NCBI RefSeq assembly: GCF_000439455.1
Contig: NC_021833.1
Span: forward strand, 496,001-560,000
Origin: Spiroplasma diminutum CUAS-1
GTDB taxonomy: Bacteria > Bacillota_I > Bacilli_A > Mycoplasmatales > Mycoplasmataceae
Reading direction: 5' to 3'
Length of the DNA stretch: 64,000 nucleotides
Positions 44,075 to 62,208 of the stretch are shown piece after piece; the stretch's first letter is position 1; each line of letters starts with the position of its first letter. The translations under genes were made by a program, and so were the position numbers. The notes beneath the pieces were generated by a model that saw only the letters and a list, made by a program, of their open reading frames with translations, was not told the DNA's origin and searched no databases.

Positions 44075-45541
44075 TTAATTTTCCTTTAACTTATTTTTAA
44101 ACATAATATTGTTTCAAATATATTTATTTGAATCAAGTTGAATTACTTTGACATTTTTTAAATCAGTTGAAATTTTATTATGATCTTTTATAAAGAATCT
44201 CAACGAAATTGCATGTTGACCATCATTAATAAAAATTTCTAAACAACTTCTATCAATTAAAATTCTAATATTATTAATTTTTAAATTACCTAAATTAATT
44301 AATGAAGGTAAATTTATTTCATCATTGTAATCCATATTTGTTCTATCAATTCAGAAAATATTATTTTGATTTTTTAAAATAATATTCTTATTTTCACTTT
44401 GTAATTTAATTTCAAAATTATTATTTGAAATATCATTTGAAATAATTTCAACTAAACCATTTTCATAATTAAAAACATTTTCTTGATAATTAATTTCATT
44501 TAATCTTAAATTTTCTAATTCTTTAATTGGTAATTGATACAGAGAATCGTTCTTTACAAATAATTCTCTTGGAATTGTTAAGTGATTACTTCAAGTAGTT
44601 AACTCTTTTGGAAACGGACTTGATTTTGAATTTCCTAATCATCCTAACATAATTATTCTATCTTGTGTATTTGAAAATATTTGTGGTGCATAAAAATCAA
44701 AACCTAAATCAATTTTTCTTAATTGAGTTTTAAATTTAAAGTTAGCATCATTGTCTACTTCTACTTCTCGATATTTAACAAAGTGACTTCCTTCACTCAA
44801 AGGTGTGTCTTGTTCAAGACAAGCAAAAATAAATTCTTTTCCATCTAAAACAAAATAATTTGGACATTCAACCATGTATGAATTTTGTTCATCACCTTTA
44901 TCAACAATAATATCTTTTTTTCAATTTCAATTGTTTCCATCAAACTCATAAACATTTAGAACACCTTCTTTGTTTAAAGTCTGTGCTCCATTTAACATAA
45001 ATAATTTATTTTCTTTTTCAAAAACAACTGGGTCTCTAAAATGTCCTGTATATTTTTCTAAATCACATTCAAATAAAAATTCTTTTGTAATAACTTTTTC
45101 TCTTAAATCAATTAACGCTTTTAATGTATAACTTGTTCTATCAACATCATTAAACTTAACATTTCCTGTATAATAAATTTCCATTTCACCTTTTGAATTT
45201 ACTCTTGCACTACCTGAAAAAACACCATTCTTATCATATTCATTTGAAGGAATTAAAGTTAATCCTTCATATGTATAATTTATGAAATCAACAGTTGTGT
45301 ATAGAGCTCATGATTTATTGTAGTGTTCTATGCTAAAAGGACAACTTTGCATGAATACAAAATATTGTCCTTTGTAATATACTAAACCGTTTGGATCATT
45401 TGTTGAACCAGAATAACTTGACAAATGAAATTGATTGTTATATCAATCACTTTCCTTTTTTTCGTGATACTGTTCGAACAACTCTAAGTGACTTTCATTT
45501 ATTAAACTATATTTTTCTCACTTCATTTTATTGTTCTCCAT
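44075..45541 (-). CDS. scrB: Sucrose-6-phosphate hydrolase (GH32)
   Basis: The 488-residue enzyme splits sucrose-6-phosphate into glucose-6-phosphate and fructose. The nucleophile Asp is in SGSTNDPNGLVY, the transition-state Asp in GHFRDPVVF, and the acid/base Glu in MVECPNYF. All three are the GH32 signatures. The C-terminal beta-sandwich contains IDRSCLEIFINDG. Several TGA are Trp. It is coupled to the PTS permease upstream (11 bases) and fructokinase downstream. Confidence 0.93.
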
Positions 45542-45552
45542 TTTGATTACTA

Positions 45553-47388
45553 TTATTTATTTTTTTTCTTTTCTTCTTTAGCTTTTTGTTTTTCAACTTT
45601 ATCATTTTCTTTTGAAATTTTTACTTCTTCAAGATATTTTTCATATTTTATTTTATCTTCTTTTAACTTAATTTCTTTTTCTTTTAATTTTTTAATTTTT
45701 TGTTCTGATTTTTTTACTTTATCTTCTTTATCTTTTAAGTCAACTTCTTTTTTAAGTTTCTTTAAATCAATTTCAGCATTAGTTAATTTAGTTGAGAAAT
45801 TTGCTAATTGTTTTTCAGTAACTTTTTTTCCAGCTTCTCAATAAAAGAAGAATGTAAGAGCAAATGCAGATCCAAATGCTACACCATTAACTAAAATAAT
45901 TAATAATAAGTTTCTAATACTATCTGAATATAATAATAGTCCTGGAAGTACTGTTACTCCCATACCACTACAAGTAACATTTAATAAACCAGCTACAAAT
46001 CCTCCAATGAATCCTCCAATTGAAGCAAAGATAAATGGTTTAACTTTAGGTAAGTTAACTCCAAATATTGCAGGTTCTGTAATACCAAACATAGTTGAAA
46101 CTGCAGAAGACATTCCCAAGTTTCTTTCTTGTTTTGATTTTGCTTTTAAAGCAACTGCCATTGCAGCTCCACCTTGTGAAATAATTGAAGCTGTTCAAAT
46201 TGCATTAAATATTGATCCAGTCATTATTCCAGCTTCGTTTGGAATATTTCCTTTAATTACAAGTTGCATTTCTAAACCTTGTAATACTTGATGACAACCT
46301 GTAATTACAATAGCTTGTAAAATTCCTGCAATTAATCCTGTTCCAAATCCAAATGGAATAGAAAGAATTGCTTGTGTACCAATTAATACTCCCTCTTCAA
46401 CTAATAATAAGATTGGCCCTAAAACAAATAAAGCAGCTAATAATGAAATTAAAATTGTTAAGAATGGAGTAAAAATAATATTTACAGATTTTGGCATTCA
46501 TAATTTAATTCATTTTTCTAAATATGCAACACCAATACCAATTATTAGTGCTGGCAATACAGATCCTTGATAACCTGTAATTGGAATTATTCACAATTTA
46601 ATAGGTGTAACTCCTTCTTCCATTCAATTTAAGCCTTTAGAAATTCAAAATTCTTTGGCAGTTAGTCCTTCTATAGGATTTTTTGCTCAATTTTCTACGA
46701 ATTTACTTTGTGCTTCTCAAGCAGAAATTGCTCCTTTATCTGGTAATAATGGACTTATTAACATTAATCCAATAATAATCCCAAGTACTGGGTTTCCACC
46801 AAATCTTTTAACTGTAGATCAACAAACTAATACTGACAATGAACTAAAAGCTGTTTTAGTTACAATATCAATAATAATTCCTAATAATGATGATGAATCA
46901 TAATTAAAAATATTCTTAAATAAAGCAGCAACACCCATTGCAAGACCTGCTGCAACAATAGCAGGAATAATTGGTAAGAATATATCTCCCAATGTTTTCA
47001 TGCTCATTTGTAATCAAGCAAATTTCCCACCACTATTTCTTAGTGCATCTTTATTTGCTTTTGCCTTTAATTTAAAGTCCTCAAATGAATCTGATTTTGA
47101 AGATTCATTTGAATCCTTTGAAGTGATATTTACTTCTAGTAGTTTTTGAACTTCTGCATAAGCTGCTTCAACAACACCAGTTCCTAAAATAATTTGTAAT
47201 TGATTTTGAGTTCAATTTGTTCCCTTAGCAATTGGAGAAGCTTTAATTTCATCAATATTTACTTTTTCTTTGTCAATTACATTAAAACGTAATCTTGTAA
47301 CACAGTGTAAATATGATTCAATATTTTCTTTTCCACCAACTGCATCAACAAATCTTTTTGCTTCTTGTGCATAATTTGTTTTTTTCAT
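45553..47388 (-). CDS. scrA: PTS sucrose-family IIBC permease
   Basis: A 611-residue permease. The IIB Cys is in YLHCVTRLRFNV near residue 29, and the IIC domain has about ten helices with the sequence FGITEPAIFGVNLPKVKPFI of the sucrose/glucose superfamily. No IIA domain is present; the last 95 residues form a very basic coiled-coil (TNAEIDLKKLKKEVDLKDKE and on). It is co-transcribed with GntR, GH32 and fructokinase genes, which points to sucrose. The ATG at 47388 follows AGGTAC. Confidence 0.85.
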
Positions 47389-47415
47389 TGTTAAGTACCT
47401 TTTCTATAATTAATT

Positions 47416-48114
47416 TTATTTTCTTCACTCAATAAAAGTTCATTCGAAAAACTTTGGATTATATCAACTTTTTCTAAACTCTATAATTTCTCCAAAGATA
47501 TCATAGACTCTTCCAGAGTCTAAAATAAATGACTTGAAATTTAAATTTTGAAAATGCTTTAATAGTTCAAAATTTTGTTCCTCTTCTGTAAAAGAAATAT
47601 TTTTTGAAGAGTGACTTACTATTATATTTGAGTTTTGCTCAATAAATAACATTAAACCATTTTGGTTTAATTGATCAATAGTGAGATTTTTAAATTTACT
47701 TTTTGATATATAACTTTCTTGATAAAGAATATTTTCATTTTCTTTTGTCTTTCTAAGACATTTAAAATGAAATAGTTTAATACCTTCTTGGAATCCTGTT
47801 AATTGAGAAATATTTTTATCACAAGTAACTTCAATTAAATCATAGTACTCATTTTTTGATCCTGGAAATAATTCTCTAAAACTAAATAATAGATTATTTG
47901 AAAGTTTATCTTGTACAACAAAGCCTTTTCCATTAACTGATTTAACAATTTTTAATTCAATCAACTTATTAAACGCTATTCTAATTGGTTGTTCAGAATA
48001 TTTAAACTTTGTTTTTAACATATTCTGACTTGGTAAAATTTCTCCTGGTAATACTTTATTTTCTCTTATTAAATACATTAAATAATCAAAAACAATTTCC
48101 CATTTCTTATCCAT
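47416..48114 (-). CDS. GntR-family transcriptional regulator of the sucrose operon
   Basis: The 232-residue protein has an N-terminal winged helix (ENKVLPGEILPSQNMLKTKF) and a C-terminal effector domain (SFRELFPGSKNEYYDLIEVT), the GntR/HutC pattern with chorismate-lyase-like ligand domain. It ends with SWYNPKFFEWTFIEWRK, whose Trp codons are TGA. It is first in the operon, before scrA. A perfect palindrome overlaps its promoter (48149-48164), so it probably controls itself and the operon. Confidence 0.8.
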
Positions 48115-48136
48115 TTTTAAAATTCCTTACAACACT

Positions 48137-48164
48137 ATTATACTGAGTTTTAAACTAGTTTAAA
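48137..48164 (-). promoter_or_regulatory. GntR promoter with palindromic operator
   Basis: On the minus strand TTTAAA (48164-48159) and TATAAT (48142-48137) are 16 bases apart. The 16-bp perfect palindrome TTTAAACTAGTTTAAA (48149-48164) covers the -35 box and half of the spacer, the classical position of a repressor site. The stop codon of the upstream PTS gene lies inside it. Confidence 0.65.
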
Positions 48165-49828
48165 TAGTTTTCTAAAGATTTTTTACCTCATTTAGTTTTT
48201 AAAAGAACTGTTGACATTCCAGCTGTTGCTATTGTTGAAATAAACATAGCAATTGAAATATGAGCTCCCATTGGAATATTTTGAAGTATTGAATTAATAT
48301 TTTCACCTTGTAAATATTCTTTTGTTTGATTTACCGTTCAATCAAATTGAACTAAACCTATTCAACTAGCACTTCCAAGTGAATTTGCAACAGTATGTGT
48401 CATTCCCAATCATCATCCTGCAATTCCACTTCCAATAGCAGCTGCTATAAATAATGGTTTAATTTGAAGATTTATTCCAAACATTGCAGGTTCTGTAATA
48501 CCTGTAAAGCCACCAATTGCACTTGAAGTTCCTTTTGTAATCTGTTCTTTATCTTTTTTACAAAAGAATATAAACACAAGTGCTGCAGTTCCCTGAGCAA
48601 TATTTGATACACAAGCAACTGGTGTAATAAATGATGAGGAATGTCCATATTTTAATTGAGTATCCACCAATAATTGAGTTTCAATTGGTAAAAATCCTTG
48701 ATGCAATCCTGTAATAACAAGGAAAGGATAAAAGAATGCAAATATCATTCCACCAAAACCAATAAAGTTTCAATTAGTATATTTAAACATTGCAGCAAGT
48801 CCAATTGATATTCCTTTTCCAATAATTTGTCCTAATGGTCCAATTATTCAAAACGCTAATCATGAAGATAATAATACTGTTCCTAATGGAACTACAATAA
48901 TTGCAATAACATTAGGAGTAATTTTTTTAAACAGTTTTTCTAAATTAACAGATATTGCCAATACCATTAAAACTGGTATTATTTGTGCTTGATATCCAAT
49001 CAACTTAATTTTGAAAAATCCCCCTGCTACATTTCCAAATATTTGATAATAAACTCCAACAGTTTTATTTAACATTTCATCATAATTGTTAATTGGAGGT
49101 TCTAAACCATTATTTTTTAATCAATTTTCAAATGCCAATTTTCTGGCTTCTTCAATTATGTTTGAATCTGTATTTAAATCAAAACCTAGTAAAACTGGAG
49201 TATTTGTTGCATAACTATTTAATAATCCTGGTGAAATTAAAACCAATCCCATTGCCATTCCTAGATAAGGATTACCTCCTCATTTTTTAGCTGCACTGTA
49301 ACCTACAAATGCTGGCAATGATCCTAAAATTGCTCCTCCAATAATATCTAATAATTTTGTAAATCCAGATGTTGGTGCAAAAGTTCCAATTAATGATTTT
49401 AATGCAAGTGACATACCACCAGCAATAAAAATAGGAATTAACGGAACAAATATTGAAGCAAATGAGTTCATTCCTCTTTTTGAAATCATAAAAACATTTG
49501 ATTTAAATGATACATCTTTTCTTCATAATGGTTCTTTATTTTCAATGTCTATATTTCCTTCAGTTGAAGATTCGTTCATAATAATTTTCATTTGATTAAA
49601 AAGCTTATCAACTATTCCTGCTCCAATAATAATTTGATGTTGAGTTTCTTGTTTTTTATATCCTTTAAATAAAGGATGCTTCTTTACTTTTTCAAGATCA
49701 AATTTTTCATCATCATTTAGGATGAATCTTAATCTTGTTGCACAATGTTGAATTTCTTTGATGTTTTCTTTACCACCAATTAATTCCAGCATTAAAGAGG
49801 CGTCGTCATAAAAATACTTTTTTGCCAT
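48155..49828 (-). CDS. PTS IIBC permease, substrate unclear
   Basis: A 557-residue permease with the IIB Cys in EIQHCATRLRFIL and about ten helices in IIC, including GGFTGITEPAMFGINLQIK. It lacks IIA. It resembles trehalose/sucrose-type permeases. The upstream region has a half-site TTTAAACTA like that of the GntR operator. It reads into the GntR gene region with no clear terminator, so both may be controlled together. Sucrose and trehalose are both possible substrates. Confidence 0.7.
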
Positions 49829-50465: not shown

Positions 50466-51302
50466 ATGAAAAACAAAGTGTGATTCATAACAGGTGCTAG
50501 CCAAGGTTTTGGTTTATTATTTGTTAAAAAATTACTTGAAAAAGGACATTGTGTTGTTGCTACAAGCAGAAGTCCTGAAAAAATAGTAGAAGAAATTGGG
50601 GAAAATGATTGTTTATTAGCAATTAAAATAGACTTGTCTGATCAAAAACAATTGGATGATGCTATGAAACAATGTGTTGATAAATTTGGGTCAATTGATA
50701 TCTTATTAAACAACGCAGGTTATGGACAATTATGAACATTTGAAGAATCTTCAGATGAAGAAATTAGAAAATGTTTCGAAGTTAACTTCTATGGTACATT
50801 AAATGCTACTCGTAGTGCTTTACCATATATGAGAAAACAACAATATGGACATATTTTTACAACAGCTTCAGTTTGAGGTTATGTTGGAGATCCATATACA
50901 TCAACTTATGCTGCAGTTAAATTTGCAACAGATGGTTGAAGTGAAGCTTTAAGTCATGAACTTGAAGGTTTAAAAATTGGAATAAGTTGTATTAAACCTG
51001 GTGGATTTAGAACTAATTTCCTAGAGTCAACTTCAATGGTAACTGGAGAAGACAAAATAACTGATTATAAAAAAAATAGAGATGAATTTTTCCAAGGTCT
51101 ATCTAAGTTTAATAAACAACAAGATGGTGATCCAGAAAAATACTGTGATTTTATAATTGATTTAACTTATAAGGATTCAAAACCACCACTTCATATTTTT
51201 ACAGGTAGAGATGCTTATAAGAAAGCAGAAGACAAAATTGCTAAAATCAGAAAAGATATGGAAGAGTTACAACAAGAAGCTACAAACTTACATGTACAAT
51301 AA
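50466..51302 (+). CDS. Short-chain dehydrogenase/reductase, active copy
   Basis: The 278-residue enzyme has the cofactor motif TGASQGFG near residue 9, NNAGYG near residue 89, catalytic Ser in TTASVWG and YAAVK as the Tyr-Lys pair. This is the full SDR catalytic set. The C-terminus has a charged helix. It is on the plus strand, 110 bases from the minus-strand operon, facing it. The substrate is unknown. A second copy is at 61378-62208. Confidence 0.85.
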
Positions 51303-51330: not shown

Positions 51331-51386
51331 ATATTTAAAATTGATCAATTTATTTTTATTGTATTGTTTTATTCAAAACTTAAATT

Positions 51387-51413
51387 AAAAAACACAAGTA
51401 AATTGTGTTTTTT
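51387..51413. terminator. Terminator of the 13-gene operon
   Basis: AAACACAA (51390-51397) pairs with TTGTGTTT (51403-51410). The A and T extensions make it work on the minus strand, at the end of the PTS IIA gene. Confidence 0.75.
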
Positions 51414-51723
51414 AATTATTTAAACTATATAAATTAATTAAATGTTCTGCTAAATCTAAAATAATTATAGCACTTGTCAAATGATCTTGTGAATGGATAA
51501 AAAGCAATGATATATCTAATTTTTCTCCACCAGCTTCATCAGAAATAAGTTCAGCATGAATTTTATGTACTTTATTTAATTCCAATTTTGCTTCTTTAAG
51601 AGTTTCTTTTGACTTTTCAAAGTCCCCTTCTTTTGCCATATTGATTGCACTTAGTCCTAAGCTTTTTGCATTTCCTGATGTTGCTATTAATTCCATACTA
51701 ACATTTATAATTTTTTCATTCAT
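51412..51723 (-). CDS. PTS lactose/cellobiose-family IIA
   Basis: The 103-residue helical protein carries the phosphoryl group from HPr to IIB. Its phosphorylated His lies in LLFIHSQDHLTSA, where the family has VHAQDH. AKEGDFEKSKETLKEAKLEL is the conserved second helix. It is the last gene of the operon and completes the split PTS with the IIB and IIC genes at the other end. A family-sized protein with no domain fusion. Confidence 0.88.
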   Translation of the reverse strand: MNEKIINVSMELIATSGNAKSLGLSAINMAKEGDFEKSKETLKEAKLELNKVHKIHAELISDEAGGEKLDISLLFIHSQDHLTSAIIILDLAEHLINLYSLNN

Positions 51724-51724
51724 A

Positions 51725-52279
51725 TTATTGATAATCTCCTATTTTTTCTATATGTTTATTTTTAAAAAGAAGATCATCTAATTTTCATTCATTGTCTTCT
51801 TTACTATATATGAAAAAGATTGTTTTCATAAGTGCTTCACTTTTATCTTCTTCATTTTTATATCTAATATCTTCAAAAAAAGTATTTGTAACTGAAAATA
51901 TCATGTGATTTTTAGAGGAAATTGATTCTATTGTATAAATACTTATATATTTTATAACTAAATCATTTCCTGCCTGAGAATCATAGTAATTTATTATTTC
52001 TTCTTTCATATTTATACATTGACTTTTAAAATTATTAGTTTCTTTTTCTATGCCAGAACAAGAATCTTTTTGTTCAACATTTAAAACTATTTGTTTATAA
52101 TAAATATCAGTCTTATTTTTATATTCGATATATAAAAAACCTTTAAATCCATAACCTCAAGTAATTACAGCAGTTAAGGAAAATAAAACTAATATTAGTA
52201 GTATTGAAAGTCATCAATATAACGACTTCTTATTTAAAAATGTTTTTTGACAAACTTCTCTTTCACTTATTTTATTCAT
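51725..52279 (-). CDS. Single-helix anchored hypothetical protein (184 aa)
   Basis: It begins MNKISEREVCQKTFLNKKSL, then one hydrophobic helix (WLSILLILVLFSLTAVITWG) and an extracellular part with two Cys about 25 residues apart. The start overlaps nothing but is 10 bases downstream of the RpiR gene; the stop is 1 base before the IIA gene. Trp codons are TGA. Family unknown; the operon position suggests a surface or substrate-related role. Confidence 0.6.
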
Positions 52280-52289
52280 TCTACCTCAC

Positions 52290-53120
52290 TTATTTTGCAG
52301 TAATTAAAACTGACTTATAATTTTCCACGTTATTTTTTTCAATTAAAATTTGAATTAAAATATCTATTAAAAATATAAATGGAATTCTATTTCCCCTTAT
52401 TAAAGATTTGAAATTTTTATCATTATTAAACACAGATAAATTTAAATCAGATAATTCTTTTATTCTATTTTTTTCAATTCCCGTTAATGAAATTAGAAAT
52501 TGCTGTTTTTCTTTTATTTTTTCAGCTAAAGTTACTAATTCCTTTGTTTCACCAGATATAGAAAATATTATAAAAAGCGACATTTCATCTTTTCTAGAAT
52601 TTACACTTAATAAAGTTTGTTGAATTATAGAATCATTAACTGCAATTGCATTAAATCCCAATCTTTGTAGTTTTAATGAGAAATCGTATGCAACAGTAAA
52701 TGTACCACCTAAAGCAAATATAAAAATTTTATTTGCTAAATTTATTTTATCTGTAACTTCATAAATTTTATTATTATTAGATAATATAGAATAATTTTTT
52801 TCTAATATTTCATTTATATATGTCATTTCTTTTTCTATTAATAAACTTAAGCTTTCATACTTAACATCTTGATCTTGGTCATTGAAAATAGCACTTTTCT
52901 TATAATTTTTAATTTCATATTTAAATTCAGCAAAAGATGAATATCCTAATTTTCTAATAAATCTTGTAACTCCACTAGTTGAATAATTAATGTTTTTTGC
53001 AAACTCTCTTATGTCAATAGTATCCATTTTTTCTAGATTATTAATTATAAATTCAACAATATTCTTATTAGTTTCATCACTATTTCTAATCTTTTTTAAT
53101 TTTACAATTACATTTGACAT
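52290..53120 (-). CDS. MurR/RpiR-family regulator
   Basis: A 276-residue protein with an N-terminal helix-turn-helix (INYSTSGVTRFIRKLGYSSF, the family signature) and a C-terminal SIS domain (IFIFALGGTFTVAYDFSLKL, IFSISGETKELV). SIS domains bind sugar phosphates or amino-sugar phosphates. The ATG at 53120, 5 bases after AAGGGGAAAA, is preferred over an in-frame earlier start. It sits inside the operon it probably controls. Confidence 0.82.
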   Translation of the reverse strand: MSNVIVKLKKIRNSDETNKNIVEFIINNLEKMDTIDIREFAKNINYSTSGVTRFIRKLGYSSFAEFKYEIKNYKKSAIFNDQDQDVKYESLSLLIEKEMTYINEILEKNYSILSNNNKIYEVTDKINLANKIFIFALGGTFTVAYDFSLKLQRLGFNAIAVNDSIIQQTLLSVNSRKDEMSLFIIFSISGETKELVTLAEKIKEKQQFLISLTGIEKNRIKELSDLNLSVFNNDKNFKSLIRGNRIPFIFLIDILIQILIEKNNVENYKSVLITAK

Positions 53121-53133
53121 AATTTTCCCCTTA

Positions 53134-54339
53134 TCAATGTTGAACAATTTTTATTAATCCAATAACTGACAAATTATCTTTATTTGAGATTATTATATCA
53201 TCTCCCAGTATTTTTTTAGCAACACTAAGAATATACTTATTATTAAATATTCCACCTGTAGCTTTCAATATTATAGTTTTGCCCTTAATTGATTCAATAA
53301 TTTTTTTATAGTTAGATATTCTTAAAAATAATTGATAAATATATGTATACAATACATTTATATCTATCTTAATATCTTCAATATTCAAAATTTTTTGTTC
53401 AAATCTTTCAAGAAAAAAATATATATCCACATCTAATAGTTTACATTTTGAAAAATCTAGACTTTCTATTTCATCTAATTTAATATTCATTTGTTTAGCA
53501 ATTAGTTCTATATTGTTTCCGCCATTTGAAGACGAAATTCCATATATATATTTATTATTATAAATTGGAAAACAATAATCATATTTGTATTTGGTATCAA
53601 CAAAACTATCTGAAATATATCTAATACCTAATGTAGTTCCAACAGACAACGATACTTCATTATCTGCTGTCACAGAACCAATTGCTGCTGCTGCACCATC
53701 TGAAATACCTAAATCTATTGATAATTCAAAATTATTTATTTGAGTTTTGAAAACTCTTCTTTTAGTTAATATTTTTGGTAAATTAACTTCATTCAAATTT
53801 ATATAATCTAATATTTCAGAACTATAATTTAGGTTTTTACAATCTACAACTCCAAGTGCTGATGCATCAGATATTTCAATATATTTTTTTCCTGAAAATT
53901 TATATAAAATATAACTCTTTAAAGTTGTAATATGATCAAAGGAATATGAAGTTTGATATTTAATTTTATAAATTGGTAAAAATGAAGAATTTACTAATCC
54001 ATTTATACTTCTAAACAGTTCCTTCTTATCATTTGGAATATCAAATGATATATTTTCTATTAGTGTTCTTCCTTTTCCAATTTGTTCATAATTATTATTT
54101 AAAAATAAAATTGTATGCATAGCAGAAGAAAAAACAATTAATATATTTGAATTGTACTTTTTATTAACATCAATACAAAAATCTCTTAAGAAATCAAATA
54201 ATTTTTCTGCACAAAATAAATTTTCATTATCAAAATAAATATCTTTATTTGCTTTTGAAATACTCTCGATATTTTTCTCGTTCTTATAAATTTCAATTTT
54301 TATATTGGTTGTTCCAAGGTCTATAAATATTTTAATCAT
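53134..54339 (-). CDS. FGGY-family carbohydrate kinase
   Basis: The 401-residue kinase starts MIKIFIDLGTTNIKIEIYKN, the phosphate-1 motif. Other family signatures are SDGAAAAIGSV, VGTTLGIRYI and KATGGIFNNKYIL. It is shorter than most FGGY kinases (about 480-500), mainly in loops. It would phosphorylate a sugar or sugar acid in the cytoplasm. Its start overlaps the DUF871 gene by 8 bases. Confidence 0.78.
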   Translation of the reverse strand: MIKIFIDLGTTNIKIEIYKNEKNIESISKANKDIYFDNENLFCAEKLFDFLRDFCIDVNKKYNSNILIVFSSAMHTILFLNNNYEQIGKGRTLIENISFDIPNDKKELFRSINGLVNSSFLPIYKIKYQTSYSFDHITTLKSYILYKFSGKKYIEISDASALGVVDCKNLNYSSEILDYINLNEVNLPKILTKRRVFKTQINNFELSIDLGISDGAAAAIGSVTADNEVSLSVGTTLGIRYISDSFVDTKYKYDYCFPIYNNKYIYGISSSNGGNNIELIAKQMNIKLDEIESLDFSKCKLLDVDIYFFLERFEQKILNIEDIKIDINVLYTYIYQLFLRISNYKKIIESIKGKTIILKATGGIFNNKYILSVAKKILGDDIIISNKDNLSVIGLIKIVQH

Positions 54340-55450
54340 TAGGTATAATTTTAAAATGTGTTCATGGAGTAATTTCGTCTAAAATATAATTCATTTTATC
54401 ATCTAATCTTCCAACTACATTTCTTAAACCATCATTTGGAATATCATGTTTTACAATTTGTAACTCACCTTTATATTTATTGTAATTATTATTTGGTATA
54501 ACAAGAGAACCAGCTGGAATAATTTCATTATTATAGTTTCTTGGTTTTATGTCAAAATCTTTGTATAAAACTCTTGTTGTTGTACTTCTTAATATATTTT
54601 GTGCTATGTCACCTCTTACAAAATGATTACCATAATCTATAATTTCTAATTCTTCTTTAGTCACATCTTTTTCTAATGATACTTTTATATGTTTTCTAAA
54701 ATCAAAATGTTTAATTATTGATTCAAAATCTTTTTTATTTGCACATTGAGTAGAAATATAAATATAGCTTACAAATGAATTTGATAAAAAGTGATTCACT
54801 TGTAATCCAATTTCTAAATCCCTATGCATTTCCAAAGTTGGTAAATTTTCACTTACATCTCAAGGTCCAACACTTTCGTGATCAGTAATAGTTACAAAAG
54901 CACCCATTCTTAATCCCATTTTTTTTATATCATCGTTATATTTTTTAAAAAGTTTATAGTCTAATCCAGAATGTCTTTGTGGATAAAAATTATGTAAAGC
55001 TTGTAAGTTTTGTGTATTAGCTCCATAACTAATAATATTTCTTATATGTTCATTAAATGTTGAACAATTTAATTCAATTTTAATATTATAACTATTGTAT
55101 GTTAAATGTGATTCAAAAATTCCGTTAAATTGGTCATCAAGTCTTAAACAATCAATATTTAACTCTTTAAAGAAAAGTAAATCAGGATTTTTATAATTTA
55201 TATTTATTGAATCAAATGTTGATTTATTTACATCAATTGTTATATAGTAACCTCTTTTTTTTGCTTCATTAATTGTATCTTTATATTTTTCTAAAAGCTC
55301 AGAATTTTTTTGTTCTAGAATATCAATAAAATTGATAAAAAGTAAATCAAATGAATAAGTTTTAGCAAGATCTAAATATTCTATTATTTCTTTCATTTCA
55401 AGCTTTTCAGGATATATAGAAATTCCTAATTGCTTTGATATATTATTCAT
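54332..55450 (-). CDS. DUF871/MupG-like TIM-barrel protein
   Basis: A 372-residue protein starts MNNISKQLGISIYPEKLEMK, the strand-1 signature of the DUF871 family. In Staphylococcus the member MupG acts as a 6-phospho-muramidase on MurNAc-6-phosphate disaccharide. The barrel continues with LNIDCLRLDDQFNG, IELNCSTFNE and HNFYPQRHSGLDY, where conserved residues are kept, then a smaller C-terminal barrel-like domain (PAGSLVIPNNNYNKYKGELQ). Cell wall is absent here, so another phospho-glycoside is the likely substrate. One TGA is Trp. Confidence 0.72.
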
Positions 55451-56195
55451 AATTTTGTCTCTCCATAATTTTATATAACTGTTTTACTTTTTCTATATTT
55501 GTAATACCTGTATCTGCATCTATAATTGAATTATATACGTGAGGTATTATTGCTTTAACTTTTGCATCTAATGCAATTTTTATAACTTCTTCAAAATTTT
55601 CTAAATCTAAACCACCTGTTGGTTCAATAACAAAATCATTTTCAGCACATGCTTTAACAACAACTTTGTATTCTTCTATAGTAGATAAACCATTCATAGG
55701 GAAAAATTTAATTGAATCTCCTCCCATATCTTTAATAATTTTTATCGCTGTATTTATTTCAACTATAGCATCCTCATTATCTTTTGATGAACTTAAAGGA
55801 CCAGTATTAATTTTTACAAATCCTGGTTTACCTGTTGGAGAAACCAAACAATTTATAAAGACTTCCTCATTTTCAAAATCACTAACAGTTAATCCAACTC
55901 CTGTAAAAACTTGATTTGCATGAGCTGGTTTAATTCTTTTTGATAATCTGGCAACCATATATGATTGTTTTGGATCACCAGCTCCTAAACCAATACTAAT
56001 TTTATTGTTTATTTCGCTCTTTCATTTAGACATTTCATTGAATGCTAAATCATCATTTGCAAAATCCTTTGATAATATTCCAACTACAACATTTCCCTCT
56101 GTAGCTTCAACAATTTCTTTTGCATTGTTTAAATCTTTTGCTAAGACATTTAAACATATTCTTTCTTTATAAAAGCAAATATTTTTTTTATTCAT
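55443..56195 (-). CDS. KDGP aldolase, DgaF-like
   Basis: The 250-residue enzyme splits 2-keto-3-deoxy-6-phosphogluconate to pyruvate and glyceraldehyde-3-phosphate. The segments GLGAGDPKQSYMVARLSK, INTGPLSSSKDN and GGDSIKFFPMNGLSTIEEYK (with the Schiff-base Lys in SIKFFP) are those of the DgaF family. PTGGLDLENFEEVIKIAL follows. The stop overlaps the next gene start by 8 bases. In Salmonella DgaF works in glucosaminate degradation. Confidence 0.85.
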
Positions 56196-56199
56196 TTTA

Positions 56200-57252
56200 C
56201 TATTCTCCTAATATTCTTATAATTTCTTGATTAATTATTTTTGCTTCTTCAAGAGATATATTTCTTAAATCTATATCCAAAAAGCCTTGAAGTGAAAAAT
56301 AATCTCTTAAATAAATTGCAACATCATTTTTTTTCAATCTTTCTGATAATTCTCTTGCCGAGATTATACTATCTTTAATTTCAAACCTAATTCTTTCAAT
56401 ATTTCTATCATCAATATCTTTTCAGCAGACAATTTTTGAATTATTGTTAAATATATCTAAATATGAATTAAAATTGATAACTTTTTTAGGAATATAATTT
56501 TCTAGTGCTTTTAACAAACCATAGATATTTTCTTTTCCAATTTTCATTACTCTGCCTATTATATTAGAATGAAGTTTTATATTATTAATAATCAATTCAT
56601 TTTTACCAAAAACAAGTCCTGATGTTGGACCTTCTACGGCTTTAGAACCTGAGAAAATAACAACATCAATATCCATAGATGAATATTTTTTTATGTCTTC
56701 CTCTGCTGCACAATCAACTATTAAAGGAATTTTATTCTTTTTAGAAAGATCTATAACTTCTTGTAATGAAGCCATATTTTTTTGTACACAATGATGTGAA
56801 ACAACATATAGTATAGCTGCTGTATTAGAATTTATCTGATATTCATAATCCTCTTTTTTACACATATTTGAATATCCAGCTTCAATTGTCTTAGCCCCAA
56901 TTAAGTTTAAAAGAATTTCAATAGGAGCCCCAAAATCAATATTTTGCCCTTTGGCAATTATGATCTCATTATTATTTGGGACAATTTTATTTACATCATA
57001 AACTCTATCTTTATATATTGTTGCTGCTGCTGCCAATGATATTCCAGCTGATGCGGAATTTACTACACAAACATTTTCACTATTAATTATTTTTTTAATT
57101 TTTAAATTAACTTCTTCTTTAAATTCTGACATTACAAAAAAATTATTTCCTGCATATTTGATTGCATCTGCAACATCATCACTTATTCTTGACACTCCTA
57201 ATATACTCATTCTTCCATCTGCATTTATTACTTTTCTAAAGTTATTTTTCAT
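56200..57252 (-). CDS. PLP ammonia lyase, DgaE-like
   Basis: The 350-residue enzyme is like D-glucosaminate-6-phosphate ammonia lyase, which releases ammonia and gives KDGP. It belongs to the SelA-like PLP fold. It shows NSASAGISLAAAATIYKD, IVDCAAEEDIKKYSS and FSGSKAVEGPTSGLVFGK with the PLP lysine. The ATG at 57252 has GAGGT 6 bases before it, inside the preceding gene, and is preferred to an earlier ATG. One TGA is Trp. Located beside DgaF and a deacetylase. Confidence 0.82.
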
Positions 57253-58348
57253 ATTTTGGTACCTCATAAAAATTTCCATTAACAATTACAGCATACGGTT
57301 TTATTTCTTCTTCAATTTCTATAGAATTATTTAATGAATCAAATTCTAATAATTTATTTTTTTCAATTTTAAAAAAGGTTAAATTAGCTATATACCCTTC
57401 TTGAATTTTTCCCATTTTCTTTAAATTAAAATGTTTATATGGATTATAACTAACCATTTTTAAAATCTCTTCTCATTCAAAACCAATACTTCTAAATTTT
57501 GACATTGTAACTGCTAATGATTTAACAGTTCCATCCTCTATATTTTTATTATAAATATCTGTGCTAATAATATCAGGTTTAAAACCATTAGCATACGTAC
57601 CATTTACACACTTATAATTAAAACTTTCACTGCCATGACCTACATCAAAAATAATTCCTTTGTTAATACAAGTTTTTAAATCATTTGTTAATGTATAATC
57701 AAAATTAAAAACAGAATTATTTTTATAATTATAAATATGAGTTATGATATCTCCTTTTCTAAGCCTTTTAGATATATCACTAAATTTAGGTGGTTCATTT
57801 CCAATATGGACCATTAATGGTTTCTTTATATTTTTTAGTTCTCTTTCTTCTAAAAAAATATCAAGAGGTTTAATTCCTTTATTTAAAGTGACACTTTTAC
57901 TCATTCTAGCTTTAAAACCAATGATAAAGTTTTCATATTTTTTATCAATTTCAAAGGTTATATCTTCTAAATTTGATAATTCAGATTGTTTATAAATTCC
58001 TTTTTTAGAAATATTTAATAATATTCTTAAATCTGTTTTTAAATTTTTTTTAACTTCTCACATTTTTTCAATTCCATCAATACCAACAGACCCTGCGTCT
58101 ACTATTGTAGTTACACCCATCTTATATCCAATATCTTCAGGATTTGAACCATAAATTTTATTTGTTTCATCACAATGAACATGTGAATCCATTCATCCAT
58201 AACTTACAAATATATCATTTTCAAATTTTATTTCTTCAAAATCAGTTTCTAAAAATTGATCTGGCTTATTAAATAAAATTTTTCCATTAATTATATAAAT
58301 GTTTTTTTTAATATTATTGATATCTTTTATATTGAGTATTTTTAACAT
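57242..58348 (-). CDS. Amidohydrolase/deacetylase family metallohydrolase
   Basis: A 368-residue amidohydrolase with the metal motif GWMDSHVHCD (HxH in strand 1), MVHIGNEPPK, IITHIYNYK and the Asp in IISTDIYNKN. NPYKHFNLKKMGKIQEGYIA is the usual end segment. Such proteins next to DgaE/DgaF are thought to remove an acyl group from the sugar acid. Its end overlaps the DgaE start. Two TGA are Trp. Confidence 0.8.
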
Positions 58349-58350
58349 AC

Positions 58351-58851
58351 TTATTTATAGTCCCTCACTTTATTTAATAAATAATCCTTTAATAAAATTA
58401 CTTTATTAATTACTCTTGCATTAAAAGTATTTTGTCTTTTTTTATGAGTCTTTTTATCAATTTCTTCAACTGTTCTTTTAGATTCTAAATATCAAACACT
58501 AGTATTTTTTGACTTGCTTGATGTTCTAACATATATTTTTGTTAAAACTGTTTCATTAGAATTTAAATTTGTTAATTCTATTGATTTATTTTCTTCAAAT
58601 TCGGTTATTATATAATTTTTTGAAATACCATTGGTGTCTGATATTTTTAAGCTTATTGATTTTTTTAAATTTTCTATTGAGAAATCTTTTGTAGTAACAT
58701 TTTTAAAAATATATTTAGTGAACTCTGTTCAAAATTCTTCGCAACTTAATTCTATTTTAAAAAATATTTCAGAGGCATAAATTCGATTTAACTCTGAAAT
58801 ATAATTATCAAAAATAGGATTTTCAAAATTATTTATCTTTTGAATTGTCAT
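58351..58851 (-). CDS. DUF3284-like protein (166 aa)
   Basis: It starts MTIQKINNFENPIFDNYISE and has no membrane segment. A middle beta-rich part (LSCEEFWTEFTKYIF, then TNGISKNYIITEFEENKSIE) resembles DUF3284, small SRPBCC-like proteins that commonly lie in PTS operons. Low similarity, so the name is tentative. Its start overlaps the membrane protein upstream by 23 bases. Confidence 0.45.
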
Positions 58852-59260
58852 TATGGAAACCTATTTTAAGTTCTCTAAATTTTGAAAAGTTGAATACTAC
58901 TTCTAGTCCAACCACTGTTAATAATATTATTCAAATAATGAAACCTACTATACTATTCAATAATATTCCACTTATAAAGAATAGTGAAATGTAAATTATT
59001 CATTTTATTGGACTGAAGTTTTTTCTATTTGATCCATAAATAAAACCACCCACAACTAGTGTTGCTAATCCCATTAATAACATTGTAGGGTTGTTATTTC
59101 CAAATAAACTTTTTACTCCTTGTCACTCTTCTCAAAGAATAGTAAAGTAAATTAAATAAATAATTATTATTAATGCTCCTAAAACTGCAGTAAAATTATG
59201 TCAATAATTTCTTCAATCTTTTTTAGCTTTAATATTAGATTTATCCTGTGAGTTTTTCAT
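58829..59260 (-). CDS. Membrane protein (143 aa) of the operon
   Basis: The protein begins MKNSQDKSNIKAKKDWRNYW and has about four helices (AVLGALIIIIYLIYFTILW, LLMGLATLVVGGFIYG, IIYISLFFISGILL, IIWIILLTVVGLEVVF). Several TGA are Trp. It lies between a smaller membrane protein and the DUF3284-like gene. Function unknown; possibly part of the uptake complex. Confidence 0.6.
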
Positions 59261-59263
59261 AGA

Positions 59264-59542
59264 TTATAAAATCCTTTCTCTAATTTTATTTTGTTTTAGT
59301 AAATAATACATATAATTTAATCATCAAGGTAAATATATGGCCATAAAAATCATAAGAAATATAAGACTCATAAAAATAGCTAATATTCATGAAATAGATA
59401 TAAAGAATACTAAACCTACTATACCAATGATTCAATTTTTTCCTCTTAATTTTCCTTCAAATTTTTTATATATTAATGTTGCTGCAATTCAATTTATCGT
59501 AGCAACAACTAAAAATATGAAAGTTATGATCAAGATGTTCAT
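59264..59542 (-). CDS. Small membrane protein (92 aa) of the operon
   Basis: It starts MNILIITFIFLVVATINWIA and has three hydrophobic segments (IFLVVATINWIAATLIY, WIIGIVGLVFFISISWILAI, SLIFLMIFMAIYLPWWLNY). The start is 1 base after the IIC gene stop. TGA codons give the Trp pairs. No family recognised. Confidence 0.55.
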
Positions 59543-59543
59543 T

Positions 59544-60947
59544 CTATAAAACCCCTGATTCAGCATCTATTTTTTCTTTTTTAAGTAGGAATCTATCATA
59601 AGCAATTGTGAATGGTAATCAAATTGCTATTGATGATGCTAATACAGTAAGAGCTGAAATTGATGCTTGTCATTGATTACCACTCGCAAAGAATGCTCCA
59701 ATAGGTCCAGGCATTGTTCATGGTGCCATTGTTACTCAATGAACCCCTAGCATTTTTTGAAATGTAAATCCAACAGTTGCTGATATAACTGGTCCCAATA
59801 CAAATGGAACTCACATAAATGGATTTAGCAATATTGGTAAACCAAATAGTATTGGTTCGTTAATATTAAAAATTCCTGGAACTAAACTTGTTCTTGAAAT
59901 TGATTTAACAGTTGCTGATTTACAGAAAATTGATCCCACAATTACAAGTCCTAATGTATTTCCTGCTCCACCAACTTGGGCAAATCATTGAAAGAATGGT
60001 TCAATGAATACATTTGGTATTTTTTCACCATTTTTAAATGCCTCTTGATTTTCTTCTAATGCAATAATTCAAAATGGTCTTGTTACAGATTGAACTAATG
60101 AACCACCATGAACTCCAAATCATCATAAAAATGTTATTAAAAATATTATTATTAATGCTCCCGCTAAGTTACTTACTAAGAAGTTACCCATTGGTGATAA
60201 AGCATCTCTTAAAAAGTTAGCTAAATCAAATCCTACAATATATCTAATGAATCCAATTATTAACGCTCCAAAAAATATTGGAACTAGAGCAGCAAATGAA
60301 TTACTTACTGCATCTGGAACTTGTTTTGGCATTCTAATAGTTATTCTATATTTTAAACAGACTCTATATATTTCAACAGTTACTGTTGATGAAACAATAG
60401 CAACGAAAGCTGTTGCCCCACCTAATTCTTTAATATTTATTCATAGACCACCTTTTAAAACATTTAAAGATGTTCCAGCGCTTTCAAGTAATGCAGATAA
60501 TTGTTTTAATTCCTCTGCACTTAATACAGAAACATTTATTGACAATGGAAATAATCACATAATATATCCCATTGCTCCAATAACTGCTCCTTGAGTAGAA
60601 CTAATTCTACTTAAACGTGCAAGCTCTGAACCTATACCAATTGACATATATAAAGCCATAACTCCAAAAGTAAATCTATTTATTAGATCAAATGCAAGTT
60701 TTAGTTTTTCTGGAAAAAGATTTCCTAAAACTTGACCATCTCCTGCACCAATCGGTATACTTGAAATTATTAAAAATATACTTCCTACTAAAATAAACGG
60801 AAGTGCGGCCATAATTCCATTTCTAATTCCAAGTAGATGTCTTTGAGTACTTATCTTACCAAATAATGGAATTAGCTTGTTATTCATTCAAACTTTAATT
60901 TTTGAATCTTCTTTTATATTATTTGTTCCCTTATCTTTTTTGGACAT
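59544..60947 (-). CDS. PTS lactose/cellobiose-family IIC permease
   Basis: The 467-residue protein has about ten helices. The sequence NEPILFGLPILLNPFMWVPF is the family signature, and HLLGIRNGIMAALPFILVGS the N-terminal one. It is the membrane channel of a split PTS, with IIB just upstream (TAATG overlap) and IIA at the other end of the operon. The substrate is a disaccharide-like beta-glycoside, to judge from the family; the downstream genes suggest an amino-sugar acid. Confidence 0.88.
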
Positions 60948-61246
60948 TATATATTCTCCTTATTTTTCTCTCAAAATTCTGTAATAGAGTTCAAATTAAA
61001 GAATTCTGGTTCTATTTGAATTAATTTTATTTGACCTTGAACATCTTCTTCAAGTTTTGAGTACATATGTTTAATTTGTGGAGATACTAATAGAATTGAA
61101 TAATCTTCTAAATAATCTAATCAACTAGTATCAGTCATTATTCCTTTTGCTTCAAATTCAATGTATCCATTAGCACACTCATTTAATTTTTTTGCTATCA
61201 TTGTGGTTGAAATTCCACCACTACATATTAATAATCCTTTTTTCAT
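60947..61246 (-). CDS. PTS lactose/cellobiose-family IIB
   Basis: A 99-residue IIB protein with the phosphorylated Cys 8 in KGLLICSGGISTTMIAKKL. This is the CxxGxSTS-like loop of IIB-cellobiose. It is the first gene of the 13-gene operon, following GGGAGG, and its stop overlaps the IIC start. Partners are IIC and IIA of the same operon. Confidence 0.88.
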
Positions 61247-61377
61247 ATAACCTCCCAAAATTATTTTATAGGAAATTTTTTTGATAATATTCTCTTAATA
61301 TTGAAAATATTTCCAAAAATATTAATTAAGAATTTAAACTTTTATAAACTATAATAATACTAATAAGGGGTAAAAAA
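61247..61377. promoter_or_regulatory. Divergent promoter region of the 13-gene operon and second SDR
   Basis: The 131-base gap carries TATAAA (about 61271-61266, minus strand) for the operon and TATAAT near 61350 for the SDR gene. The near-palindrome GAAAATATTTC at 61303-61313 (GAAA, three bases, TTTC) is a candidate site for the RpiR regulator encoded in the operon. -35 boxes are poor. Confidence 0.45.
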
Positions 61378-62208
61378 ATGAAAAACAACGTATGATTTAT
61401 AACTGGTGCAAGTCAAGGACTTGGATTTGAATTAACTAAGGAACTTATTGATCAAGGTTTTAAAGTTGCTGTTACTTCTAGAACACCTGAAAAAATATCA
61501 AAAAAAATAAAAAGTGATAACTTACTTGCTTTAAAAGCAGATGTTACAAATCAAGAAGATATGAATAATTCATTAAAACTTGTAAATGAGAAATTTGGAT
61601 CAATAGATATTTTAGTTACTAATGCAAGTTTTACAAGACTTTGAACTTTTGAAGAAAGCGAAGCTGAAATTATTAGAAAAAGCATGGAAATAAATTTCTT
61701 TGGATCTTTAAATACAGTAAGAGCTGCTCTTCCCTATTTAAGAGAACAAAAGTATGGACATATTTTTGTTACAAGTGCAAACTGAGGTTATGCTGGTTTT
61801 CCCTATTCAACTTGTTTTGGAGCAACAAAATTTGCTTTAGATGGTTGAGCAGAAAGTATAAGTCATGAATTAAGACCTTTAGGAATAACTGTATCTAGTT
61901 TAAAAAATGGTGGATTTAGAAGTGATTTTTTTGCTAAAGAAAACTTATCTGGAAAATCTAAATTCAAAGAATATAAATTAAATAGAGATCAATGATTTGA
62001 TACTTTAAAAGGTTTTGATAAGAAACAAGATGGAGATCCAATTAAATATGCTAAGTTTTTAATTAATCTTTCTAAAAAAGACCAATTACCTTTACATATT
62101 TTCCCAGGAAGAGATTCAAACCACTTTGCTGAAGTCAAAATTGAAAGATTAACTGCAGATATGGAGAAAATAAAAAAAGAAGCAACAAATTTACATGTTG
62201 AAGATTAA
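61378..62208 (+). CDS. SDR-family protein lacking catalytic Ser and Tyr
   Basis: A 276-residue paralogue of the protein at 50466-51302. The cofactor motif TGASQGLG is kept, but NNAG is TNAS, the TTASVWG segment is VTSANWG (catalytic Ser to Ala), and YAAVK is FGATK (Tyr to Phe). The lysine is kept. The frame is intact with AAGGGG 8 bases before the start, so it is expressed. It probably binds NAD(P) or a sugar ligand without normal redox chemistry. TGA codes Trp. It lies head-to-head with the operon. Confidence 0.85.

Follow-up and report, generated by a model that had tools for sequence, protein, structure and literature searches.

The window analysed here, a 64,000-nucleotide stretch of Spiroplasma diminutum CUAS-1 (NC_021833.1, positions 496,001 to 560,000), carries an operon that joins a lactose-type phosphotransferase system (PTS) to enzymes of the DgaE and DgaF type. 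Culex mosquitoes are the source of S. diminutum, whose complete genome of 945,296 bases reads TGA as tryptophan (genetic code 4). Under this code, 13 minus-strand open reading frames (ORFs) lie between positions 61246 and 51412 (Table 1), with overlaps of up to 23 nt and gaps of at most 10 nt at their junctions when DgaE and the RpiR-type regulator are taken to start at ATG 57252 and ATG 53120, respectively, and a Shine-Dalgarno-like sequence precedes most of the starts. The order of all 13 genes is identical in two further Spiroplasma genomes, G179 and G193, so that it occurs in three of the 20 Spiroplasma genomes considered; DgaF was not found in the other 17. The terminator-like repeat overlaps the final stop codon. 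From packing and synteny we infer that the 13 genes are co-transcribed, and the 13-gene cluster proposed in an earlier, sequence-only reading of this DNA is borne out by the ORF coordinates, the tight junctions and the synteny.

Table 1. Features of the S. diminutum operon, in the direction of transcription; positions are those of the window.
Feature	Position	Strand	Remarks
Candidate operator TGGAAATATTTTCA, upstream of IIB	61302..61315	-	Identical in three genomes
PTS lactose/cellobiose-type IIB	60947..61246	-	PF02302 above cut-off; 89-90% identity in G179, G193
PTS lactose/cellobiose-type IIC	59544..60947	-	PF02378; TIGR00410 lacE subfamily above cut-off
TM1, small membrane protein directly 3' of IIC	59264..59566	-	Kept in 3 genomes
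TM2, membrane protein	58829..59260	-	About 62% identity in G179, G193
Soluble 166-aa protein	58351..58851	-	Orthologues 64% and 58% identical
AHD, EF_0837-type amidohydrolase, predicted N-acetylglucosaminate deacetylase	57242..58348	-	TIGR03583, PDB 2ICS
DgaE-type pyridoxal phosphate (PLP) ammonia-lyase	56200..57252	-	Start ATG 57252; longest ORF to 57285
DgaF, 2-dehydro-3-deoxy-phosphogluconate aldolase	55443..56195	-	PF07071, NF047796 above cut-off
GH170 (MupG/ChbE family) 6-phospho-glycosidase	54332..55450	-	PF19200 and PF05913 above cut-off
FGGY kinase, gluconokinase-like, predicted glucosaminate (or 2-keto-3-deoxygluconate, KDG) kinase	53131..54339	-	PF00370 (FGGY_N) above cut-off
RpiR/MurR-type regulator	52290..53120	-	PF01418 (HTH_6) and PF01380 (SIS) above cut-off
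TM3, single-span membrane protein, soluble C-terminal part	51725..52279	-	One hydrophobic segment
PTS lactose/cellobiose-type IIA	51412..51723	-	PF02255 above cut-off
Terminator-like perfect inverted repeat	51383..51417	-	15-nt arms, 5-nt loop, T-run

Family searches agreed with the labels that the sequence-only reading had given to PTS IIB, IIC and IIA, the amidohydrolase, DgaE, DgaF, the DUF871/MupG-like barrel, the FGGY kinase and the RpiR regulator. DgaF exceeded the cut-off of the NF047796 equivalog model (357.9 against 300 bits) and matched PDB 3LM7 (E=5e-83). The preceding enzyme is of the SelA/DgaE type and was classed as DgaE-like, not as an equivalog (267.8 bits against a cut-off of 600; TIGR01437 subfamily, 356.7 against 385.3); both His and the Lys of the solved Salmonella DgaE, whose roles have been described (PMC9529869), are kept in the window and in every locus class considered below, with one exception, at His162, in 93. 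AHD remained below the cut-off of TIGR03583, yet this was its best model (359.8 against 432 bits); it matched PDB 2ICS (E=1.6e-72), and, position by position, its putative metal ligands HxH, Lys, His, His and Asp are shared by no fewer than 87 of 88 aligned proteins. The IIC component scored 302.5 bits against the TIGR00410 cut-off of 236, which together with PF02255 and PF02302 assigns the transporter to the lactose/cellobiose class, and was below the cellobiose and chitobiose equivalog cut-offs, including NF007634 for N,N'-diacetylchitobiose IIC (148.5 against 760 bits). The barrel, described earlier as phospho-glycosidase-like, proved to be a MupG-related member of GH170, with MupG_N and MupG_C domains at 259.4 and 115.3 bits (cut-offs 24 and 24.4) and matches to PDB 1X7F (E=3e-70) and 2P0O (E=6e-27). 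For the FGGY kinase, the gluconate kinase 3GBT was the sole PDB match and the gluconokinase equivalog TIGR01314 the best model, far under its cut-off (58.1 against 648.6 bits).

We compared the operon with 98 loci, comprising 80 named from a DgaF-guided retrieval and 18 from whole genomes, L027 and L061 being one locus; the retrieval took the best-matching DgaF loci only and the sample is therefore skewed to Enterococcus. An AHD-DgaE-DgaF core was common to loci with interchangeable transporters. Class A combines a mannose-type PTS with DgaE and DgaF and has neither AHD, GH170 nor kinase; class B pairs the core with an SFCGS/DUF4312/DUF4311/DUF4310 module and has no kinase; class C comprises a lactose-type IIC, a small membrane protein, GH170, AHD, DgaE, DgaF and a PfkB kinase. 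Layouts B and C occur together in some enterococci, and L011, L012 and L013, from close Mollicute relatives, are of class B. Judged by gene content, the window layout is that of class C, with an FGGY kinase replacing PfkB. The combination of GH170, kinase and core recurs in many Bacillota genera.

The presence of a kinase, the need for which had been left unexplained, tracks that of GH170 across these loci and can now be accounted for. A kinase was present in 43 of 46 GH170-positive DgaF loci versus 4 of 52 GH170-negative ones, and after collapsing by genus in 16 of 17 versus 2 of 26 groups (p=9e-9). Of 7 well-supported independent pairs on the DgaE+DgaF tree, which contains 14 changes of GH170 state, approximately 5.4 have the kinase varying with GH170 and 0.1 have it varying in the opposite sense. 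A kinase is expected in the operon because a disaccharide PTS phosphorylates the non-reducing sugar only, so that the released acid is unphosphorylated. Our reading is that a transporter which phosphorylates the acid itself would make a kinase dispensable, whereas an acid that enters unphosphorylated, through a GntP permease or at the reducing end of a PTS-imported disaccharide, would call for one. The four loci with a kinase and no GH170 are two from Listeria, both carrying a GntP gluconate-type permease, one from Vagococcus beside an amino-acid permease, and L033. One of the GH170-positive, kinase-negative loci, L012, looks like a separate mupG-type operon, a neighbouring gene being MurQ-like by eye. 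Since PfkB serves in other Bacillota and FGGY here, the kinase function has been filled at least two times. GntP in the Listeria loci and the gluconokinase-like kinase of the operon both favour an aldonate as the substrate.

Two further clusters carry a lactose-type PTS, a GH170 and a kinase. One, in the same genome (L175, 1429-7646; G000:C1:222428-228645), has a ROK kinase and a lipoprotein and is possibly a chitobiose system; a third cluster, in G179 (L179, 2545-8190), has an RpiR regulator and a BadF-like kinase. In both, the kinase follows the logic above with a different sugar as the released product.

We propose that the operon probably allows N-acetylglucosaminate in beta-glycosidic linkage to be imported and fermented, the likeliest such compound being chitobionate (GlcNAc-GlcNAc1A, GlcNAc standing for N-acetylglucosamine). 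Chitobionate is the C1-oxidised dimer that arises when chitin is cleaved by lytic polysaccharide monooxygenases (LPMOs), which are copper enzymes. The lactose-type PTS would import the disaccharide and phosphorylate its non-reducing GlcNAc at C6, and GH170 would split the product into GlcNAc-6-phosphate, destined for NagA and NagB, and unphosphorylated N-acetylglucosaminate. The EF_0837-type amidohydrolase would then remove acetate, the FGGY gluconokinase-like enzyme would phosphorylate the acid at C6, DgaE would convert glucosaminate-6-phosphate to KDG-6-phosphate and ammonia, and DgaF would cleave KDG-6-phosphate to pyruvate and glyceraldehyde-3-phosphate. An N-acylated substrate is indicated because AHD is missing in class A, where by analogy with Salmonella free glucosaminate is the substrate, and phosphorylation is placed before DgaE because class A DgaE proteins, which by the same analogy use the 6-phosphate, fall within class C DgaE clades. 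Comparative genomics thus lends good support to the scheme of the earlier reading, in which a disaccharide PTS delivers an N-acylated amino-sugar-acid glycoside to a phospho-glycosidase, a deacylase, DgaE and DgaF; new relative to it are chitobionate, the logic of the kinase and the comparative support. Uptake of free glucosaminate was rejected, as the mannose-PTS loci for glucosaminate have no deacetylase, GH170 or kinase.

Chitobionate is the best guess at the substrate because the occurrence of DgaF follows that of chitin-type LPMO genes: in the enterococcal order (385 genomes), DgaF was found in 61 of 72 AA10 LPMO-positive versus 40 of 313 LPMO-negative genomes, an odds ratio of 38 that takes no account of relatedness. 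Membership of ChbE in the same family as the window GH170 also indicates chitobionate, as ChbE and a cellobiose-type PTS are necessary for growth of Lacticaseibacillus paracasei on N,N'-diacetylchitobiose (PMC12791066), and the characterised GH170 enzymes act on 6-phospho-N-acetylhexosaminides (MupG, PMC6262408; ChbE, PMC12791066). Taken jointly, AHD, GntP, the gluconokinase-like kinase, the GH170 substrates and the LPMO link favour GlcNAc-GlcNAc1A as the predicted substrate. The genes nagA and nagB are encoded elsewhere in the genome.

Beyond the neglect of relatedness in the LPMO statistic, several observations weigh against this proposal. LPMO and DgaF clusters do not share an operon and no LPMO lies within 10 kb of DgaF; in the window's own genome no LPMO was found and GH18 is a weak match at best, and the substrate would therefore come from the host or from other microbes. 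In the best tree, the Spiroplasma GH170 falls outside the clade of Bacillota class C enzymes and could therefore differ in specificity, although a single clade for both was not rejected with two E. avium paralogues included (approximately unbiased [AU] test, p=0.077). The independent-pairs test of kinase and GH170 is borderline (median p=0.06), and hence supportive, short of conclusive. The scheme assigns no role to four of the 13 operon proteins. A host source is plausible for an insect symbiont, since an insect AA15 LPMO yields aldonic chitin oligomers; another insect LPMO is necessary for breakdown of the peritrophic matrix, both as stated in PMC9156745 and work cited there. As a separate observation, a row of lipoproteins in G179, which shares the operon, includes two or more that carry GH18 chitinase-like domains (L180, 4425-9987).

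The placement of the Spiroplasma GH170 and the lack of an LPMO in this genome also suit a variant of the same pathway logic in which the imported glycoside is not chitobionate, but has a different hexose or hexosamine as its non-reducing sugar or an acid that derives from another polymer. We regard this variant as doubtful, although it deserves attention, given that LPMO genes and the DgaF core occur together within a related order, the N-acetylhexosaminides on which characterised GH170 members act (PMC6262408, PMC12791066) and the presence of NagA and NagB. The order of the later steps is a distinct question. In Pseudoalteromonas, where OngB, OngC and KdgK act, deacetylation and deamination precede phosphorylation (PMC9537276), and with chitobionate still as the substrate, DgaE might likewise deaminate unphosphorylated glucosaminate before the kinase acts on KDG. 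This order is a possible one of slightly better standing, though unlikely on balance: it is kept alive by the resemblance of the PfkB enzymes to KDG kinase, the KDG-kinase structure 2AFB being among the best PDB matches of the Bacillota PfkB, whereas the DgaE proteins of kinase-bearing and mannose-PTS clusters share clades and the His/His/Lys set, the window kinase is gluconokinase-like, and Salmonella DgaE uses the 6-phosphate (PMC9529869).

Two further readings fare much worse. Class B loci within the family share the AHD-DgaE-DgaF core by itself, and the operon might be a patchwork in which a PTS, GH170 and kinase for an ordinary beta-glycoside adjoin a separate glucosaminate cassette by chance; an identical 13-gene order with overlapping genes in three genomes, and the combination of GH170, kinase and core in many Bacillota genera, make this quite improbable. 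More improbable still is peptidoglycan recycling, in which imported MurNAc-GlcNAc (MurNAc, N-acetylmuramic acid) would be cut by a MupG-type enzyme. The barrel does belong to the MupG Pfam families and the regulator to the RpiR/MurR type, but a MurQ etherase is absent from the 13 genes, the remaining enzymes fit glucosaminate catabolism, and Mollicutes have no cell wall of their own.

Chitobionate catabolism as proposed here resembles several known systems in part. The chb cluster of L. paracasei (chbR, the chbC/A/B PTS, chbD for a DUF3284 protein and chbE for GH170) likewise uses a cellobiose-type PTS and GH170 for a chitin-derived disaccharide (PMC12791066), but its substrate is the unoxidised dimer and, as described, it is without the amidohydrolase, DgaE, DgaF and aldonate-type kinase; nor was DUF3284 homology detected in the 166-aa protein of the window. 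Salmonella dgaABCDEF, for D-glucosaminate, has the DgaE and DgaF reactions in common with the operon, the catalytic residues being conserved, whereas its mannose-type PTS imports and phosphorylates the free acid, and it has no deacetylase, glycosidase or kinase. The Pseudoalteromonas ong system (OngA, OngB, OngC, KdgK and OngR) acts on oxidised chitin under an RpiR-type regulator and shares deacetylation, deamination, a kinase and the KDG-6-phosphate end point with our scheme (PMC9537276), but relies on a periplasmic beta-hexosaminidase and an SSS importer, has no PTS and deaminates before phosphorylation. Its deacetylase OngB is of the D-aminoacylase type (subtype V, Cys/His/His; PMC12017989), in contrast to the ligand set of AHD, and family searches found no homologues of OngA, OngB, OngC or OngIT among the operon enzymes, so that the likeness is functional only. 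The class C loci of Enterococcus and Clostridium match the operon in their set of functions and differ in having PfkB instead of FGGY and GntR instead of RpiR, with IIA and IIB usually outside the operon; we found no experimental work on them in the literature searched. The mupG-murQ-murP-murR cluster of Staphylococcus aureus also applies GH170 to a PTS-phosphorylated disaccharide, but has MurQ, another class of PTS and different downstream enzymes.

The combination of parts in the operon appears to be undescribed, and no PTS route for oxidised chitobiose was found in the literature searched, although one may exist elsewhere. In a quick tree with AT-rich rows flagged, the Spiroplasma DgaE and DgaF proteins from all three clusters join those of L011, a class B locus from another genus of the same family, with full support, and the different kinase family suggests that the disaccharide layout was probably assembled separately in the Spiroplasma lineage. 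Convergent recruitment of GH170, suggested by the best tree, was dropped because of the AU result above, rejection of a single clade (p=0.0009) being obtained only when the two E. avium paralogues were left out. Whether these loci represent an undescribed PTS-driven pathway for C1-oxidised chitobiose across Bacillota, assembled separately with another kinase family in insect-associated Spiroplasma, is a proposition that we consider evenly balanced. If true, it would be a Gram-positive counterpart of the marine ong system, and the products formed by chitin LPMOs, bacterial and insect alike, would have a route by which they are metabolised in the host gut. In the literature searched, known catabolism of oxidised chitin is that of marine Gammaproteobacteria, with no account found of how Gram-positive bacteria use the products of their own chitin LPMOs. 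The comparison offers a compact rule, by which a disaccharide PTS with GH170 would require an aldonate kinase and a phosphorylating monomer transporter would not, and provisional functions for EF_0837-type amidohydrolases and the adjoining PfkB or FGGY kinases follow from it. It also suggests that an insect symbiont with a reduced genome may feed on by-products of the turnover of host cuticle or gut lining.

The operon would be controlled by its RpiR protein, probably through the candidate operator upstream of IIB, a 14-nt near-palindrome with 1-2 exact copies per genome. The three membrane proteins noted earlier are genuine ORFs kept in G179 and G193, but TM1 is the only one with a protein in a corresponding position in other Bacillota: 36 of 41 class C loci encode, between IIC and GH170, a membrane protein of 83-105 aa whose place and size TM1 shares. 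Homology between the two was unsupported (17% in hhalign). Neither TM1 nor the 166-aa protein matched a Pfam or NCBIfam family, and TM2 and TM3 had no family match. The label 'DUF3284-like', previously attached to the 166-aa protein, could not be upheld, since its two orthologues likewise had no match in Pfam, the DUF3284 family of ChbD and CelI included. TM3 is conserved in G179 and is apparently divided into two overlapping ORFs in G193 (L010, 12175-12721), which appears to reflect a frameshift or a sequence error.

The four-gene, transporter-like SFCGS/DUF4312/DUF4311/DUF4310 module stands beside AHD-DgaE-DgaF in L011, L012, L013 and approximately 50 other loci, and a literature search found no paper on it. 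As class B loci often adjoin a PRD regulator with an EIIA-type domain, a PTS-like role for the module is plausible, as a guess. In the window, two paralogous short-chain dehydrogenase genes (50466-51302 and 61378-62208), 53% identical and in the same orientation, flank the operon and may mark its insertion site or a duplication; a copy 83% identical to the former also lies near the cluster in L010. Adjoining the operon, positions 44075-49828 hold a GH32-like hydrolase and two EIIBC-type PTS genes, identified by eye, one of them confirmed by Pfam.

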